Assembly: GCF_001494635.1 (NCBI RefSeq)
Contig: NZ_LOJF01000001.1
Span: 186,001 to 250,000, forward strand
DNA: 64,000 nucleotides
Origin: Tractidigestivibacter scatoligenes
GTDB taxonomy: Bacteria; Actinomycetota; Coriobacteriia; Coriobacteriales; Atopobiaceae
Reading direction: 5' to 3'
Part shown: positions 14,987 to 59,778 of the stretch, one piece after another
Layout: each line of letters starts with the position of its first letter
Position numbering within the stretch: the first letter of the stretch is position 1
Position numbers and translations under genes: made by a program
The notes under the pieces: generated by a model
Database searches by the model: none
What the model was told of the DNA's origin: nothing
What the model saw: only the letters and a program-made list of their open reading frames with translations

Positions 14987-15029
14987 GGGTATGTCACCGT
15001 GCCCGCTCCTTCTCGCCCTCCCTTTTTAT

Positions 15030-15116
15030 CCCTTTCTTTAGCGGTATTTGAGAATTGCGCCACTCATCAACTGGGCAAACATGGAGCCGGATTCTCAAAT
15101 ACCGCTAAAGAAAGGG
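15030..15116. repeat. Perfect 26 bp inverted repeat with 35 nt spacer
   Basis: Arms 15030-15055 and 15091-15116 are exact reverse complements (core CTTTAGCGGTATTTGAGAAT). The spacer holds no gene. Possible explanations are a cruciform or hairpin element, or the remains of a small non-autonomous mobile element. It abuts the polypurine tract that follows. Confidence 0.85.
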
Positions 15117-15126
15117 AAGAGGCAGC

Positions 15127-30525: not shown

Positions 30526-30561
30526 CGGTTCCGATCCACGACCCCTCAGGCGATGAGAGTG

Positions 30562-30651
30562 TCATTTCGTGTACGTCTTGTACACGAAATGAATTAAAAA
30601 CGTGTACAGCCTGTACACGAAATGACAGAAAAACGTGTACATCCTGTTAGA
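30562..30651 (+). promoter_or_regulatory. Three palindromes at exact 33 bp period upstream of the ATPase
   Basis: CGTGTAC begins at 30568, 30601 and 30634. The first unit is a perfect palindrome with 13 bp arms (TCATTTCGTGTAC, 5 nt spacer). The second has 7 bp perfect arms (CGTGTAC/GTACACG) and shares the downstream AAATGA. In the third the right arm has decayed into TGTTAGAATAAA, which contains a -10-like TAGAAT at about 30648. It looks like an operator array overlapping the promoter of the gene at 30689. Confidence 0.65.
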
Positions 30652-52534: not shown

Positions 52535-55500
52535 ATGGGAAAGAAGAACCAGAAGGGTTCCGGCGGAGTGCGTACCGTGAGCCGTGCCCGCAAGGTGGGG
52601 AGAGTCATCAAGACCATCCTCAAGTCTGCCCTGGTAGTCGTACTGGCGGTGCTTATGGTCGCCGTCAACGTGATTCTGCCGGGCAACGGAATGATCGTGC
52701 GCATGGTCAACAACATGGCCGGCTATCAGCAGTCGTGGGACAACTCCAAGGCGAACACCGAGGGGCTGGACCTTGACTACTACAAGGCCGACTATGACAA
52801 GGACAGCATTCGCGATGCCGAGGAGAGCCTCGACCGCCAGATTGCAAACGAGGGCTACGTCCTGCTCAAGAACGACGACAACACCATGCCGTTTGAGCAG
52901 GGCACGACGTTTAGCTTCTTCGGGGAGTCGGTGAAGAACCTCACGGCGACCCAGAGCATTATGACGATGTTTACAGGCGCCAGCGGCGACTCCAGCAAGC
53001 TGACGAACTCCTTTGAGAGCCGCGGTCTCCACGTGAACCAGACACTTCTGGACTTCTACACCAAGGGTGCCGGAAGCAAGTACTCCATGGGTCGCGGTTC
53101 GATCAGCTTTGGCGCAGACGAGGACTTCCACATCAACGAGTGCCCGTTCAGCGAGCTTGAGTCGACGGACGGTCTGTTCGACTCTGCCAAGGGCACCGTT
53201 CCCGTCTTTGTGATGCGCCGAGTTGCCGGCGAGGGCCGTGACATGCCTCGCTCCATGTACCGGTACGCATCGAGCAAGGAGGACCAGGTCAAGAGCTACC
53301 TCGAGCCCGACTCGACGGAGCTTGAGATTCTCCAGTACATCAACGACAACTTCGACAACGGCGTGGTTGTTGTCAACACCGCCTCGGCGCTGAACCTTGG
53401 GTGGCTCAAGCAGTTCCCCAACATCAAGAGTGTGCTGTTCGTGCCCTCTACCGGCACCTACGGCACCGACTCGCTGGCGGCCATCTTCTCTGGTGAGGTC
53501 AACCCCTCCGGCAAGACGGTCGATACCTTCGAGGCGAACTCGCTCAACTCTCCGGCCGCCCAGAACTTTGGCGACTACCAGTACGTCGACGCAGACGGCA
53601 ACTACACCGGGCACGCCTACGTCTCGTATGCCGAGGGCATTTACGTTGGCTATCGCTACTACGAGACCCGCTACGAGGACGCCGTGCTTGGGCAGGGCAA
53701 CGCCGGGGACTTCGACTACGACAGCGAGGTTGTCTACCCGTTTGGCTATGGCCTTTCGTACACGAGCTTTGACTGGGCCAACTACAAGACGACCTGGGAC
53801 GGCAACACCTGCACAGTCTCGATTGACGTTACCAACGCGGGTAACGTAGCGGGCAAGGACGTTGTCGAGGTCTACGCGCAGAGCCCCTACACCGATTACG
53901 ACCGTGCCAACGGCGTCGAGAAGAGCGCCGTCCAGTTGGTGAATTACGGCAAGACCAAGCTCCTCGAGCCCGGCGAGACCCAGACGGTCACCGTCACCTT
54001 CGACCAGGACGCGCTCAAGGCGTACGACGCCAACGGAGCGAAGACCTACATCCTGGACGCGGGCACCTACTACATCACCGCCGCCCACGACTCGCACGAC
54101 GCCGTGAACAACGTGCTTGCGGCCAAGGGGTCAAACGTCTCCGGCAACGCCGCGCTTGTGAACAGCTACGTGCCGTCAAACACGGAGGTCGACACCACCA
54201 CCTACGCCACCGACTCCAAGAGTGGTAGCCAGGTGACCAACCTCTTCGACGACGCAAAGGGCGACATCACCTACCTCACACGCGCGGACTGGGAGGGTAC
54301 CTTCCCCAAGCACGACGGAGAGCCTGACGAGAACAACGTCTCTACCTGGGGCGCCGAGATCAACGGCACCGATGCGGACGGCAATCCCGCTGCGTACACG
54401 TGGGTCAAGGTTGCGGACTCCTCGCTTGTCGAGAAGCTCAACTCGCTCGACTCTGGTAATCCCGTGGACGACTCCGCCATTACCGATACCCCGGTGTATG
54501 GCAAGGACAACAGCGTCAAGCTCATCGACCTGCGTGGCAAGGCGTACGACGACCCCATGTGGGACCAGCTCCTCGACGAGCTCACCGCGGATGACTACCG
54601 CGAGCTCATCGGCCACTCGGGCTATGGATCGGAGTTCATCCAGTCGATTGGCAAGCCGTTCAACATCGACGCGGACACCGCGGCAGGCCTCATCTACGGC
54701 GGAACCGGCATGATGTTCTGCTCGCCTGTGGTCATGGCGCAGACTTGGAACCAGGAGCTTGCCACCGCCTACGGCACCATGATCGGCAACGAGGCGAACA
54801 TCGGCGGAACTACCGGCTGGTACGCGCCCTCGATGAACATTCACCGCACGCCCTTCACGGGACGTAACGGCGAGTACTACTCAGAGGATCCCGTCATCAG
54901 CGGCACCGTGGCTTCTCTCGAGATCAAGGCAGCGGCGGAGAAGGGCGTGTACTCTACCATCAAGCACTTTGCCCTCAACGACCAGGAGAACCACCGCGGT
55001 GACGGTGGCACGGAGCGCGGATGCGCCACGTGGGCCAACGAGCAGGCCATCCGCGAGGTCTTCGTCAAGCCCTTCGACATCTGCATGCACTCTACCGGCG
55101 CGGTTGATGAGAACTACGTCGAGAAGGGCGCCGACGGCAGCTACTCCATGGCGATGACCAAGGTCGATGCCTGCCAGGCCATCATGAGCGCCTTCAACCG
55201 CGTTGGCGCAACGTGGGCGGGCGGCAACTATGCCCTGCTCACCGGCCTTGCTCGTGACGAATGGGGCTTCAACGGCTGGATCATCACCGACTCCGCCAAC
55301 TCCGCTGGCCCGTACATGGACTCTAGCCAGATGATTCGTGGTGGCGGCGACTCGCGCCTGCGCTCCAACGAGAACAACTACACGTACGACGCGAACAACT
55401 CTGCCGAGTACCACTATGGTCGCGAGGCAATCCATCACCTGCTGTACGTCACCGCTAACTCGAAGGCGATGGAGGGCGCAATGCCCGGCAGCGTCTACGT

Positions 55501-55675
55501 GCCCGGCATGCAGGTTATCACCAAGGTGACCATTGCCGTGAACGTGGTCTCCATCGGCCTGATTGCGCTGGTGTTCTGGACCGGCTGGCGCAACCACAAG
55601 AAGCGCGCGGCCGAGCGGGCTGCCGCTGCTTCAGCGACGACGAGCGCTGCTGACGGCGACGGTGGCGAGGCGTAG
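52535..55675 (+). CDS. GH3-family protein with reversed domain order, membrane-anchored (module 2)
   Basis: 1046 residues. A basic N-terminus and a membrane helix (about 31-50) act as anchor. Domain order is as in 44612-47563: sandwich domain first (EGYVLLKNDDNTMPF, VVVVNTASALNLGW, PFGYGLSYTSF), a fibronectin-III-like part (VSIDVTNAGNVAGKDVVEVY), then the catalytic barrel (GWYAPSMNIHRTPFTGRNGEYYSEDP, Lys810-His811 in IKHFALNDQENH, nucleophile Asp919 in GWIITDS). A C-terminal helix near residues 1000-1020 and an Ala-rich tail follow. Both ends may therefore be in the membrane, with the enzyme outside. It is divergent from the module 2 regulator, which probably controls it. GGAGGGGAGAAG precedes the ATG. 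Confidence 0.88.
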   Translation: MGKKNQKGSGGVRTVSRARKVGRVIKTILKSALVVVLAVLMVAVNVILPGNGMIVRMVNNMAGYQQSWDNSKANTEGLDLDYYKADYDKDSIRDAEESLDRQIANEGYVLLKNDDNTMPFEQGTTFSFFGESVKNLTATQSIMTMFTGASGDSSKLTNSFESRGLHVNQTLLDFYTKGAGSKYSMGRGSISFGADEDFHINECPFSELESTDGLFDSAKGTVPVFVMRRVAGEGRDMPRSMYRYASSKEDQVKSYLEPDSTELEILQYINDNFDNGVVVVNTASALNLGWLKQFPNIKSVLFVPSTGTYGTDSLAAIFSGEVNPSGKTVDTFEANSLNSPAAQNFGDYQYVDADGNYTGHAYVSYAEGIYVGYRYYETRYEDAVLGQGNAGDFDYDSEVVYPFGYGLSYTSFDWANYKTTWDGNTCTVSIDVTNAGNVAGKDVVEVYAQSPYTDYDRANGVEKSAVQLVNYGKTKLLEPGETQTVTVTFDQDALKAYDANGAKTYILDAGTYYITAAHDSHDAVNNVLAAKGSNVSGNAALVNSYVPSNTEVDTTTYATDSKSGSQVTNLFDDAKGDITYLTRADWEGTFPKHDGEPDENNVSTWGAEINGTDADGNPAAYTWVKVADSSLVEKLNSLDSGNPVDDSAITDTPVYGKDNSVKLIDLRGKAYDDPMWDQLLDELTADDYRELIGHSGYGSEFIQSIGKPFNIDADTAAGLIYGGTGMMFCSPVVMAQTWNQELATAYGTMIGNEANIGGTTGWYAPSMNIHRTPFTGRNGEYYSEDPVISGTVASLEIKAAAEKGVYSTIKHFALNDQENHRGDGGTERGCATWANEQAIREVFVKPFDICMHSTGAVDENYVEKGADGSYSMAMTKVDACQAIMSAFNRVGATWAGGNYALLTGLARDEWGFNGWIITDSANSAGPYMDSSQMIRGGGDSRLRSNENNYTYDANNSAEYHYGREAIHHLLYVTANSKAMEGAMPGSVYVPGMQVITKVTIAVNVVSIGLIALVFWTGWRNHKKRAAERAAAASATTSAADGDGGEA

Positions 55676-55718
55676 CGGTACAGGCGCCAAACGCGTTGTT
55701 GCGCGACAGCGTTGAACG

Positions 55719-55755
55719 AGGCGGGCCTGCCCCTTGTGGGTGGGCCCGCCTTTCT
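55719..55755 (+). terminator. Terminator of the GH3 gene
   Basis: AGGCGGGCCTGCCC with GGGTGGGCCCGCCT (14 bp with small mismatches, 5 nt loop), then TTTC. Confidence 0.82.
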
Positions 55756-55810
55756 CGGCATATGGGTGCTCGTCCTTCTCGGTTCCCTATGTGGCTGTCT
55801 GCGCGTCTTG

Positions 55811-55903
55811 GTGCGAAAACGTACGCGAAAACAATTACTTCGTTGCAGCGGTGACGTTTCCCCAGGAAAGCAACGAGCCGCATTGTTTTCGTGTGCGCTT
55901 TTG
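55811..55903. repeat. R4 repeat, copy 1
   Basis: It ends with ATTGTTTTCGTGTGCGCTTT plus TG, identical over 22 nt to 57407-57428, and carries GTTTCC and ACGC-AAAAC upstream as the other copy does. The left part GCGAAAACAAT is the inverted form of the right part. 55904-56080 shows no other feature except the start region of the next gene. Confidence 0.65.
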
Positions 55904-56080
55904 ACGCCGCCGATGCCGCCGCCGACGCTGCCGACGGACCTGTCCAGGCCCGCCCGGGGTTGCTCGACTGCAGCACCACTGCGCCACCGCTTACCGAGCG
56001 ACGTGCCGCTTGCCTATGGCTTGATGCGTCGTATGTCTCGCCTGAGTATCCTTTCGACACAACTAAAGTTAGGGTGTGCC

Positions 56081-57235
56081 ATGCGAGTCACGTTCAACAA
56101 GCTCACCGCGCTGCTCATCCTGCGTGCCCTGCGCTCTTCTCGGCGCACGCTCACGTCGAGCAGGAAGGGCCTCCTTGCGCCCACGCCGGAGCCGTACGTC
56201 CGCTGGACCGCGCGCCGTCTGGGCAACGCGCTCGCCACTGCCGGAGTGGACCCCGCCGACTTACGCGGCAAGTTCCAGGTCATGGTGCCCGAGCAGAACG
56301 CACGCATCCGATCGAATGCAGCCCAGAATACCATCTACACCCACGGGCTGCCCGCAAATCCCGTGATTGAAGTGGCAGATGGGGTGCAGATATCCTGTCC
56401 TGAGCTGCTATTTATTGAACTTGGCACCATCATGTCCCCTGTGGTTCAGCTGCTTGTTGGGCTGGAGCTGTGCGGCAGGTTCTCGCGCTGTGGTGCGGAC
56501 CCGCGCAACGGTCCGGTGACGTTTGGCATCAAGCCGGTAACTACGGCAAAGAAGATTCGGGCATACCTTGCGAATGCGAACGATGTTGCCGGGCTCGAGC
56601 AAAGCCGCAGGATAGCCGAGTGGCTCATGGATGAAGCGTGGTCGCCGCAGGAGTCTATAGTTGATGCGCTGGCGAGAATGCCGCTCCACGAGCTGGGATA
56701 CGAGCTTGGTGAGCTGCGGCTTAATCCTCGCGTTGTGGCCGGTGGCGATGCGGAATTGCTCGTTGCCAAACGCAGCCGAGTTCCGGACACCATAGTGGTG
56801 GGCACTTCCGTTGGTTTCAACTATGATGGCGGGCCGCATTTTGGCGAAGACTTCGATGCAGATGCGGAGCCTAATTCCCAGCAGAACGGTATCGCTGCGA
56901 TTGGTCCTATACGTGCGGCGATTGTGGCCGACAAGCGCCGGGACCGCGACCTGCTGGTGCAGGGGCTGTCGGTGCTTCCGGTGACCAAGGAAGACCTGCT
57001 TGAGCGCGGTGGCTTGGATCGCGTGATGCTGCAGGCCATGAGCATCATCGAGCGTCTGGGGCAGGGCGATTACACAAGGCAAAAGCAGGCTTTGTGCAGG
57101 AAAAAGCTGGCCGAGGAACGCCAGAAACTAATCTGGTCGCTGCTCCCGGGAACGCGTGGCAGGGTGCTGAGCCGCGAGCTCGCAGAAGACCACATGCCCG
57201 AGATGACAATTCACGACGAGGAGATCTATTTCTAG
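56081..57235 (+). CDS. Unknown protein with possible C-terminal nuclease-like domain
   Basis: 384 residues from ATG 56081 (GGGTGT is only a weak ribosome site). I know similar large hypothetical proteins in Coriobacteriia but no named family. The middle has ISCPELLFIELG and LLVGLELCGRFSR, a pattern common in those proteins. The C-terminal part reads VGFNYDGGPHFG, then VADKRRDRDLLVQGLSVLPVTKEDL, reminiscent of the DUF559/Vsr-like endonuclease layout (Y-D-G/S...D..R...L...G..V). The Glu-rich catalytic strand is not clear, so activity is uncertain. Codon use is less biased than that of its neighbours. It is bracketed by two R4 repeats about 1.5 kb apart, suggesting a transferred cassette. Confidence 0.6.
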   Translation: MRVTFNKLTALLILRALRSSRRTLTSSRKGLLAPTPEPYVRWTARRLGNALATAGVDPADLRGKFQVMVPEQNARIRSNAAQNTIYTHGLPANPVIEVADGVQISCPELLFIELGTIMSPVVQLLVGLELCGRFSRCGADPRNGPVTFGIKPVTTAKKIRAYLANANDVAGLEQSRRIAEWLMDEAWSPQESIVDALARMPLHELGYELGELRLNPRVVAGGDAELLVAKRSRVPDTIVVGTSVGFNYDGGPHFGEDFDADAEPNSQQNGIAAIGPIRAAIVADKRRDRDLLVQGLSVLPVTKEDLLERGGLDRVMLQAMSIIERLGQGDYTRQKQALCRKKLAEERQKLIWSLLPGTRGRVLSRELAEDHMPEMTIHDEEIYF

Positions 57236-57342
57236 GCGGATGTCGCGCGGGCGACGCTGTGCGTGGCGCTTCTCGTTAGCGGTGGCTGGCTGACGGCCGG
57301 TGGGGCTGGCTGGGCTGACCTTGGCTTCTCGGCCCGCAATAA

Positions 57343-57428
57343 ACGCACGCCAAAACGACCGGTTACTACCAGTTTCCTGGGAAAACGCGCCTGGCGAGAA
57401 GGACGAATTGTTTTCGTGTGCGCTTTTG
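57343..57428. repeat. R4 repeat, copy 2
   Basis: It shares the terminal 22 nt core exactly with 55882-55903 and the upstream GTTTCC and ACGC-AAAAC blocks, in the same orientation. It occupies the middle of the 338 bp gene-free stretch before dnaX; nothing else was recognised there. Confidence 0.65.
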
Positions 57429-57573
57429 GCCGAGGCAGACGACGTCGAGCGGGGTCGCGGCCGCGCACCGGTCCGCGTGCGGTCGCCGTCGTTCAAGGTG
57501 ACACGGTGGAGCGCGGTCCATCCCCAATGCCCGCGGGTATACTGGACTCTCAGGCAAGAGGCGCGGAGGTCCC

Positions 57574-59778
57574 ATGGAATCGCTCTACACGAAGTACCGC
57601 CCAAAGACGTTCGAAGAGGTTGTCGGCCAGGAACACGTGGTCGAGACCCTCAAGCGCGCGGTTCTCGAGGGCAAGGTGAGCCATGCGTACCTCTTCTGCG
57701 GACCGCGCGGAACCGGCAAGACCACCATGGCGCGCATCCTGGCGAAGGCGCTCATGTGCCAACGCGGCGCAGGTCACCTGCCCGATGGTACCTGCGAGGA
57801 GTGCCAGCTCATCGCCGCAGGTGAGCACCCGGACGTGCTTGAGCTCGACGCGGCCTCGCGCACGGGCGTCGACAACGTCCGCGAGGAGATCATCAGCCGC
57901 GTCAACTACGCGCCCGTCCGTGGCAGCTACAAGGTCTACATCATCGACGAGGTCCACATGCTCACGCCGGCGGCGTTCAACGCGCTGCTCAAGACGCTTG
58001 AGGAACCCCCGAGCCACGTGGTCTTCATCATGTGCACCACCGACCCGCAGAAGATTTTGGCCACAATTCTCTCGCGAGTCCAGCGCTTTGACTTCCACGC
58101 TATTGGCCCTAACGAGATGCAGGCCCACCTGGCGTACGTGTGCACGCAGGAGGGCTTCACCTACGAAGACGCTGCGCTCGAGCTTATCGTTCGCCATGCG
58201 CGCGGCGGCATGCGAGACGCGCTCACCTCGCTCGAGCAGGTCTCGGTCTTTGGCGACGGCGCCATCACGCTCTCGGCTACCCAGGACCTCTTTGGCGAGG
58301 CCAACGGTGCGGTTCTGGGCAACGTGACAAAGGCAATTGCCGAGAGGGACGTGGCGTCGCTCTTCGAGGAGGTCTCGCGCCTTGCGTCCGAGGGGCGCGA
58401 CCTGCTGCAGTTCACGCGCGAGCTTGCGTCGCGCATGCGCGACGTGTACGTGACCGCGGTGGTGGGCGATCCGGCGAAGGTCATTGCCGCGTCGTCGGAG
58501 GAGCTTGCGAGCCTCTCGTCCGAGGCAACGGCATTTGGCTCTGCGGACCGCATCGCCCGTGTGCTCACCATCTTGGGCGAGGCCTCCAGCGAGATGCGAA
58601 CGGCCACCAATCAGCGCCTTGTTCTTGAGATTGCGCTGACGAGAATTGCCCGGCCAGAATCCGACCTCACGCTGGAGTCGCTTGCCGAGAGGATCGGAAA
58701 CCTCGAGCGACAGGTTGCCGCGCTTTCGGTGCCCGGCCGCGTGGCGGCGCCGGCTCCCGCGCCGGCTGTGCCAGCACCAGCTCCCGCGTCCGCCCCGGTC
58801 GTCGCGCCCGCTCCGGCGCCAGCCCCGGCTCCGCAGCCGGTGGCCCCCACGCCGCGCCCAGCGCCTGCGCCAAGGCCGACCCCTGCTCCGGCGCCGCGGC
58901 CAGCCCCGGCGCCGCAGCCAGCCCCGGCGCCCCAGCCCGCTCCTGTCCCGCGTACTTCGGCTGCGCCGACAGCTGGCGCTCCCATCACCGATGGCGCCAC
59001 GCTGCAGCGCAACTGGAAGCGCGTCACCGAGGGCCTCATGGCCAAATCGGCGTCTAGGGGCTCCCTGCTCCTTAACTCCAGCATCGTCTCGGATGACGGC
59101 GCAAAGCTCACCGTGTCCTTGCCCACGGGCTCGCACTTTGCGGCCCGCATGCTCGAGCGCGCTGACGTACGCGAGCTCTACCTGCCCATTGTCGCGAGCG
59201 TCTTTGGCCCGCGCGAGGTCGTCTTTGTCGAGTCGAGCCTCTCGAGCCAGGCGATAGCACAGTCCGACCGAGCCGCATCTGCCCCGCGCCCGGCGCCTGC
59301 GCCCTCATCTCAACCTGCACCGGCACCCGCGCCCCAGGCCGCACCGCAACAGGCACCAACGTCGTATCCCATGCCGTGGGATCCCGTTGCGCCCGCAGGG
59401 CAGTCCGCACCCGCTCCAGAGCCCCCCGTGGTCGAGCAGGTTCCGTACAGCGATGCGGATGCCTCTGCCTACGAGGAGGACGCGGAATTCGGCGCCCCCA
59501 CGCCGGCTCCAACGCCGCAGCCAGCCCCGACCCCGGCTCCGCAACCAGCCCCCGCGCCCAAGCCCGCGTCGGTGCCGCAGCCGGCCCCCGCTCCGGCACC
59601 TGCTCCGACCCCCAAACCGACTCCGCCCGCCACGCCTCCGGCAGACGACGCCCCGGTCCTCACCGAGGAGTTCGCGAACATCGCGGCGATGCTCGAGGAC
59701 GCCTTTGGCGGCTCCGTAGTCGTGAAGCCAGACTCGCCTGATGCGCCTTCCGCTTCGGATGGAGAGGGCACAGACTAG
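57574..59778 (+). CDS. dnaX: DNA polymerase III subunits gamma/tau
   Basis: 734 residues. The AAA+ clamp-loader module occupies residues 1-370: Walker A GPRGTGKTT (43-51), zinc-binding CEEC region, Walker B YIIDEVHML, sensor 1 FIMCTTDP and the Arg-finger segment. Two Pro/Ala-rich linkers (about 385-465 and 570-715) surround a domain III/IV-like block (LQRNWKRVTEGLMAKSASRG onward). This subunit drives loading of the beta clamp and couples polymerases at the fork. The linkers are unusually long and repetitive (APAP/QPAP runs). No A-rich slippery site for programmed frameshifting was noticed. It is followed by ybaB and recR, the usual dnaX neighbourhood. Confidence 0.96.
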   Translation: MESLYTKYRPKTFEEVVGQEHVVETLKRAVLEGKVSHAYLFCGPRGTGKTTMARILAKALMCQRGAGHLPDGTCEECQLIAAGEHPDVLELDAASRTGVDNVREEIISRVNYAPVRGSYKVYIIDEVHMLTPAAFNALLKTLEEPPSHVVFIMCTTDPQKILATILSRVQRFDFHAIGPNEMQAHLAYVCTQEGFTYEDAALELIVRHARGGMRDALTSLEQVSVFGDGAITLSATQDLFGEANGAVLGNVTKAIAERDVASLFEEVSRLASEGRDLLQFTRELASRMRDVYVTAVVGDPAKVIAASSEELASLSSEATAFGSADRIARVLTILGEASSEMRTATNQRLVLEIALTRIARPESDLTLESLAERIGNLERQVAALSVPGRVAAPAPAPAVPAPAPASAPVVAPAPAPAPAPQPVAPTPRPAPAPRPTPAPAPRPAPAPQPAPAPQPAPVPRTSAAPTAGAPITDGATLQRNWKRVTEGLMAKSASRGSLLLNSSIVSDDGAKLTVSLPTGSHFAARMLERADVRELYLPIVASVFGPREVVFVESSLSSQAIAQSDRAASAPRPAPAPSSQPAPAPAPQAAPQQAPTSYPMPWDPVAPAGQSAPAPEPPVVEQVPYSDADASAYEEDAEFGAPTPAPTPQPAPTPAPQPAPAPKPASVPQPAPAPAPAPTPKPTPPATPPADDAPVLTEEFANIAAMLEDAFGGSVVVKPDSPDAPSASDGEGTD

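Follow-up and report, generated by a model that had tools for sequence, protein, structure and literature searches.

A gene between palindromic ends, with solo palindromes elsewhere, is the arrangement of IS200/IS605 and its palindrome-associated derivatives. REPIN/RAYT systems comprise extragenic inverted doublets that are dispersed and fall into several differently worded groups, each clustered by its own gene (PMC3116915). There are three further precedents. The homing endonuclease I-Bth0305I, in which binding and cutting reside in different parts, dimerises on a target near 60 bp (PMC3943268); the site bound by AbiEi is an 11-bp inverted repeat with an N27 spacer (PMC3985639); and Caulobacter VsrA carries DUF559 (PMC12907096).

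The locus compared with these systems lies in a window of 64,000 nucleotides, the whole stretch analysed, from Tractidigestivibacter scatoligenes, an actinobacterium of gut type; coordinates are those of the window unless a contig or locus is named. It consists of a gene for a 384-aa protein between two palindromic elements, R4a and R4b. The reading that we favour, with moderate confidence, is that R4a-gene-R4b is one member of an order-wide system, REPIN/RAYT-like and homing-like, in which an AbiEi-type binder would read the arms of the palindromes and an EDxHD nuclease would act at their core. The features are as follows.

52535-55675, GH3 glycosidase gene, upstream neighbour (Pfam)
55811-55903, no strand, R4a, left palindromic element; arms 55816-55835 and 55882-55901, core CCWGG 55862-55866; orthologous single element in genome G006
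56081-57235, plus strand, gene for the 384-aa protein; AbiEi-like N-terminal part and putative C-terminal EDxHD (Vsr/I-Bth0305I-like) nuclease domain
56081-56629, plus strand, AbiEi-like part, residues 1-183; aligned structurally to the AbiEi antitoxin of S. agalactiae (6y8q, residues 67-195)
56642-57055, plus strand, putative EDxHD nuclease domain, residues 188-325; fold match to I-Bth0305I (3r3p), invariant residues
56651-56653, 56786-56788, 56837-56839 and 56930-56932, plus strand, motif codons E191, D236, H253 and D284
57343-57428, no strand, R4b, palindromic element on the right; 3' arm 57407-57426, same sequence as that of R4a, core TTTCCTGGGAAA at 57373-57384
57574-59778, dnaX, downstream neighbour (Pfam)
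15029-15117, no strand, tripartite element like R4 but with different arms (TTTAGCGGTATTTGAGAAT, 27 bp and perfect) and core CAACTGGGCAAAC; a third, TTTAGCGG type

R4a occupies the gap between the glycosidase gene and the 384-aa gene, and R4b the gap between that gene and dnaX. The first-pass annotation had described R4 as a repeat with an exact 22-nt core standing in the same orientation on both sides of the gene. The exact sharing is real, the 22-mer ATTGTTTTCGTGTGCGCTTTTG being found at 55882-55903 and 57407-57428. Allowing up to three mismatches, a 20-nt core of R4 matched the window three times against 0.00 expected from 100 shuffles, and since the third match (55816-55835) is on the minus strand, R4 is an imperfect palindrome with 20-bp arms. 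Each copy is ~85 bp long and is laid out as arm, spacer, CCWGG-bearing core, spacer and arm, with CCWGG ~6 bp off the midpoint in both. The common orientation holds for the 3' arm only; the cores containing CCWGG (55862-55866 vs 57376-57380) lie in opposite polarity, and the full copies are identical at 66 of 93 positions whether aligned directly or inverted (shuffled mean 46.5, maximum 56). In the whole 2.47-Mb genome the 20-mer had six matches at up to three mismatches and its reversed control none, so R4 does not occur widely at random. An Rfam scan of 55600-57600 returned one chance match below cut-off. The weaker codon bias noted earlier for the gene is also borne out, GC3 being 0.712 as against 0.849 in the upstream glycosidase gene and 0.789 in dnaX. 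That R4 is palindromic, and that most homologues of the gene have palindromes of their own, are the larger facts and go beyond the first-pass annotation.

The 384-aa protein matched no Pfam, NCBIfam or PADLOC model at cut-off, and no Pfam or NCBIfam family was over cut-off in 67 family members. A search of solved-structure sequences gave one meaningless match (E 0.97). A confident AlphaFold2 model (mean pLDDT 91.3, pTM 0.89) was compared by structural alignment (VIA-align 2, 243 chains aligned). The top chain was 3r3p, the catalytic domain of I-Bth0305I, with 96 of its 97 residues aligned to model residues 188-325 (Z 7.6, rmsd 2.6), followed by AbiEi (6y8q; Z 7.0, rmsd 3.3, 114 residues, model residues 1-183) and Vsr (1cw0; Z 6.5). 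These values must be read with the tool's own note that Z under 8 is common; Z of 7-8 can be background. The top two of the 243 chains cover complementary halves of the protein. Because the Foldseek E-values were not significant (best 0.49, Vsr 1.3) and the Z-scores may be background, the fold assignment rests jointly on the model, on the complementary coverage and on the invariant order of E, D, H and D. The alignment of 67 sequences shows no variation at E191, D236, H253 and D284, which, judging from order and spacing, probably correspond to the E, D, H and D of the EDxHD motif. The AbiEi match spans the AbiEi C-terminal domain; the DNA-binding winged helix of published AbiEi was not recognised, and Pfam AbiEi_1 scored below cut-off on the 384-aa protein (E 0.089). 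Pfam DUF559 was over cut-off in none of the 67 members and absent from the 384-aa protein, with weak below-cut-off matches in 3 of 10 distant homologues, and the Pfam transposase models gave the 67 members only one chance-level Nterm_IS4 match (E 0.064). The Vsr/DUF559-like C-terminus proposed from the sequence is thus supported as fold and motif, the structure prediction having yielded a predicted nuclease fold.

Homologues are plentiful within the order. A search with the single protein found them in 29 of 40 relatives, none more distant than the order, with up to 12 matches per genome; the other 11 in-order relatives gave no match, and at least one of these (G021) was matched by a profile. 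The profile search of 296 genomes of the phylum at E 1e-8 gave 22 positives, 21 of the 23 in-order genomes and 1 of the 273 outside, so that the family is largely confined to one order. The window's genome (G000) has eight gene places (ten matches, two being second pieces), and palindromes lie near all eight (R4, L039, L046, L047, L048 and L287-L289); that of L046 is ~0.5 kb upstream of the gene, and those of L287 and L288 may be due to chance. All eight genus genomes examined retain a copy that lies between tilS and a metallo-beta-lactamase gene, both neighbours being confirmed in seven and one side in G003, where the contig is 3.3 kb.

The association was measured at 76 named loci, including Olsenella, Tractidigestivibacter and other Atopobiaceae, of which 64 had a complete gene with 450 bp on each side and 12 were left out. 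With a palindrome defined as an inverted-repeat score of at least 13 and a span of at least 55 within 450 bp, one was found near 50 of the 64 complete genes, upstream of 25, downstream of 39 and on both sides of 14; the other 14 had none at this threshold. As controls, windows lying 1.2 kb or more away had a palindrome in 31 of 1052 cases, shuffled flanks in 1 of 128 and other genes of the same loci in 29 of 182. Confining the comparison to intergenic gaps, palindromes were found in 52 of 89 homologue gaps vs 15 of 109 control gaps (Fisher p 3e-11), some of which may hold solo elements. A caveat that must be applied to these figures is that the genes are related by descent and the palindrome counts are not independent trials. 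Among distant homologues a palindrome was present at 25 of 36 genes vs 1 of 101 control windows. Two simpler readings of the palindromes were dropped: the terminator reading because of the long arms, loops of 30-60 nt and, by eye, the mostly missing T-run, and the promoter-operator-only reading because the elements are oftener downstream than upstream (39 vs 25).

The arms are specific to the gene. Where a gene has palindromes on both sides the arms match across the flanks in 14 of 14 cases (score 13-26), while arms of different genes score at most 9, four orthologues excepted. Sharing of arms fell steeply with protein identity, from 13/13 pairs at 80% or more through 12/15 at 70-80% to 1/19 at 60-70%, 4/77 at 50-60%, 3/214 at 40-50% and 0/988 below 40%. 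Over all pairs the correlation of protein and arm similarity was weak (Spearman 0.146, reached by 3 of 2000 permutations) because arms turn over below ~70% identity.

The centre of the elements is shared. Of 70 elements, 14 contain exact CAACTGGG in their central half (0.055 in shuffled interiors), and 32 have it with up to one mismatch, 25 of these between -1 and -1.5 from the midpoint and 7 between -6 and -6.5. In 41 of the 70 elements the form [AC]CWGG is no more than 10 nt from the midpoint, shuffling giving a mean of 6.6 and a maximum of 14; in the distant set, 12 of 31 elements had it within 20 nt, which is not significant (shuffled mean 6.0, maximum 14). CCWGG is the Dcm/Vsr recognition site. 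The CCWGG-like core of R4 (55862-55866, 57376-57380) together with the Vsr-like fold is a candidate lead on cleavage preference.

Elements of these types are also dispersed. Across the eight genus genomes strict AGTGAACACG (AGT-type) doublets number 2-6 per genome and GTTACCGGC doublets 0-10, with reversed controls of 0 for both. Lengths fall into classes ~10 bp apart (82-83 and 91-93; 69-70 with one of 59), a spacing that would fit two binding units on one face of the duplex better than a free hairpin loop. The TTTAGCGG-type arm has 44 matches in G000 at up to three mismatches (reversed control 1). When doublets were resolved by a search expression allowing 50-120 bp at 26 fetched loci, 5 of them staying unresolved, 22 doublets were obtained at 21 loci, 21 of the 22 being exactly 73 bp long with a core of GCCAACTGGGCAAATGC or CGACCTGCGGAAATG. 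Information per column was 1.6 bits in the arms, 1.25 in the core and 0.54 in the spacers; at 0.67 and 0.79 bits in the 20 bases outside, the arms may extend outward. No cognate nuclease gene for TTTAGCGG arms was found among the fetched loci, and these doublets are apparently an orphan population. Genome G005 likewise keeps GTTACCGGC elements with the GTTACCGGC gene absent from its locus. In G000 the AGT/R4-type elements found (C1:23188-98525, window 55811-57428) are no more than ~115 kb from C1:136445-137953, the best match to DnaA, which scores under the curated cut-off of the model; GTTACCGGC elements, unlike these, are spread over contigs. A separate array at window 30560-30640, with tandem units TGTCATTTCGTGTAC / GTACACGAAATGACA and ACGTGTACA, looks like another palindromic binding array, its CWGG core absent by eye.

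Several of these observations would suit a DNA-binding system that serves the host, the proteins being regulators or chromosome-organising or repair factors, the palindromes their selected sites and the nuclease a repair or conditional activity. Spacers mostly differ among copies of the same genome, so that dispersal of the elements is not recent, and orthologous sites can retain their elements, in some cases better conserved than the flanks; these two points and the retention of elements without their gene make this the strongest rival, one that we nevertheless consider unlikely. It would account for a fixed element length with conserved arms and core and drifting spacers, for the gene kept at the tilS locus in all eight genomes (both neighbours confirmed in seven) and for the distribution of AGT/R4 elements relative to the DnaA match, and AbiEi autoregulates through an inverted repeat (PMC3985639). 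It sits badly, however, with the position of the elements, downstream of 39 of the 64 genes and upstream of only 25, and with the 11 solo elements at 9 loci, which on crude gene calls lie in tandem, convergent and divergent gaps without pattern. The turnover of arms between paralogues and the invariant EDxHD residues count against it as well, as does the fact that a genome has several paralogues, every one of which uses a different word.

A comparison of G000 with seven other genomes of the genus supports the earlier suggestion that a single-gene segment was gained or lost between R4 copies. The 384-aa gene is absent within 1.5 kb of the dnaX match in all seven. The nearest of them by dnaX (G006, 95% over 1.1 kb) has a single complete R4, and lacks the gene, where G000 has R4a-gene-R4b, and is thus the geneless relative with a single R4 that the suggestion predicts. 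Its left flank matches the sequence left of R4a at 135/150 positions vs 82/150 for that left of R4b; its right flank matches the sequence right of R4b at 116 positions (150 against 140 nt) vs 76/150 for that right of R4a. As the left flank follows R4a and the right flank R4b, the change lies within the 3' arm. No R4 was found in the glycosidase-dnaX gap of G002, G003, G004 or G005, and in G001 and G007 (L108, L114) the same gap carries a TTATTGCGCG-type palindrome. One intergenic spot thus holds differing element types, R4 in G000 and G006 and the TTATTGCGCG type in G001 and G007.

A second allele difference involves no gene. At a place where G000 and G002 have a single element, G005 has that element, ~110 bp counted from arm end to arm end, and then another element; the breakpoint again lies in the arm, the stretch gained or lost is non-coding and the additional element is, by eye, a near-copy of one ~360 bp away. 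Differences of a segment plus an element have accordingly been seen between species, in the G006 and G005 cases, and no new clean insertion at a distance was seen in the genomes compared. Two other paralogue loci showed no clean empty site with a single cognate element; G005 has an unrelated palindrome of 82 bp in such a place, and G000, G001 and G005 have a solo element of another type. At L220, L221 and L222 (G000, G001, G005) the locus of the TTATTGCGCG gene is geneless and a 152-bp palindrome stands alone there, with arms similar to the ones next to the distant homologue L048 in G000. A different repeat, TGAGACAAAGGGACAGTCCC, occurs in intergenic places at L217:2772-2853 (G005), L005:734-764 and the G004 dnaX gap, the first being where G005 is without the GTTACCGGC gene.

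These alleles could be taken to mean that an ordinary gene sits between inert old repeats, the G006 allele being a deletion by homologous recombination or slippage between the 22-bp identities. The breakpoints do lie inside the shared arm and such deletions need no enzyme; RecA-type recombination between repeats would be enough to account for the alleles, and no nuclease would be required. We regard this as quite improbable, since it leaves unexplained both the palindromes with gene-specific arms at most homologues and the central core that they share. Least probable, and not supported, is the defence or genome-conflict cassette suggested by the first-pass annotation, in which invading DNA would be the target of the nuclease and the repeats would serve exchange between strains: EDxHD/Vsr nucleases do resemble restriction enzymes, presence varies between species and specificity turns over, but PADLOC gave nothing for the protein and one irrelevant weak match among 67 members (ZorF, E 0.0052), no homologue was found in phage and plasmid (single-protein tblastn) or viral (alignment patterns) collections at the sensitivities used, such elements are located in the host chromosome and the neighbours are GH3 glycosidase and dnaX genes.

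The REPIN/RAYT-like and homing-like reading starts from the observed elements, their association with the genes, the gene-specificity of the arms, the shared core, the fold and motif, and the one-element allele. Each gene would encode an AbiEi-like DNA-binding protein with an EDxHD nuclease, and the adjoining palindromes would be its private targets. As AbiEi binds an inverted repeat and I-Bth0305I dimerises on a long target, it is proposed that a dimer reads the two inverted arms, the gene-specific words, which would place the nuclease domains over the shared central core, [A/C]CWGG followed by an A/T tract. A nick or break at the core may then lead to gain or loss of the segments between elements through recombination of the arms, the segment moved being the nuclease gene at R4 and a non-coding stretch in G005. 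Solo elements would be targets, relics or non-autonomous copies. Binding, cleavage and a nuclease-driven gain, loss and spread, that is mobility, are what we infer on this reading.

Set beside the systems described at the outset, the dispersed inverted doublets resemble those of REPIN/RAYT (2-6 AGT-type and 0-10 GTTACCGGC per genome, 22 TTTAGCGG in G000). No HUH tyrosine transposase was recognised here, however, the protein being AbiEi-like plus EDxHD and, as far as tested, unrelated to that of REPIN/RAYT; the elements come in fixed length classes and have a conserved core as a third, central part, and copies of the same genome share little spacer. Similarly, no tyrosine transposase like that of IS200/IS605 was recognised and no clean transposition was seen. 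With the EDxHD homing endonuclease I-Bth0305I the protein shares the nuclease fold and the probable E, D, H and D residues, at Foldseek values that were not significant, and may share a dimer on a very long target. It differs in that the gene lies between two complete elements and does not interrupt its target, that the binding part is AbiEi-like and N-terminal, and that the family is chromosomal and was not found in the phage collections searched. The likeness to the AbiEi antitoxin of type IV toxin-antitoxin systems is confined to the N-terminal half (Z 7.0, a value that can be background, and Pfam AbiEi_1 below cut-off); this half is fused to a putative nuclease, its winged helix was not recognised, and there is no adjacent AbiEii nucleotidyltransferase toxin gene, the neighbours being the glycosidase gene and dnaX. 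Finally, the C-terminal fold and the core resembling CCWGG recall the DUF559/Vsr proteins (E. coli Vsr, Caulobacter VsrA), but no Pfam DUF559 match is over cut-off here, and the long AbiEi-like part and the private palindromes are differences.

Since the R4 system is without a defining feature of REPIN/RAYT and of homing endonucleases, it is rated as a new kind that works like them, and no prior description of it was found in the openly licensed PubMed Central literature. It may be, and we put this forward tentatively, that these Coriobacteriia AbiEi-EDxHD paralogues are a second, independent invention of the REPIN/RAYT kind, a family radiated into many copies per genome, with mostly private tripartite targets (inverted specificity arms and a shared core at fixed helical spacing), breaks at the core that carry gene or segments and a co-evolution of binder and word as closed selfish or domesticated pairs. 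REPIN/RAYT has so far been treated as one special case; if the present reading is true, a gene plus a private palindrome is a kind of system that can have more than one origin. A large Coriobacteriia protein family that is without a name would then gain a function and a target, and there would be dozens of natural pairs of binder and word in which recognition, cleavage and turnover of specificity could be tested, along with a set of natural nucleases for long sites whose specificity can be read.
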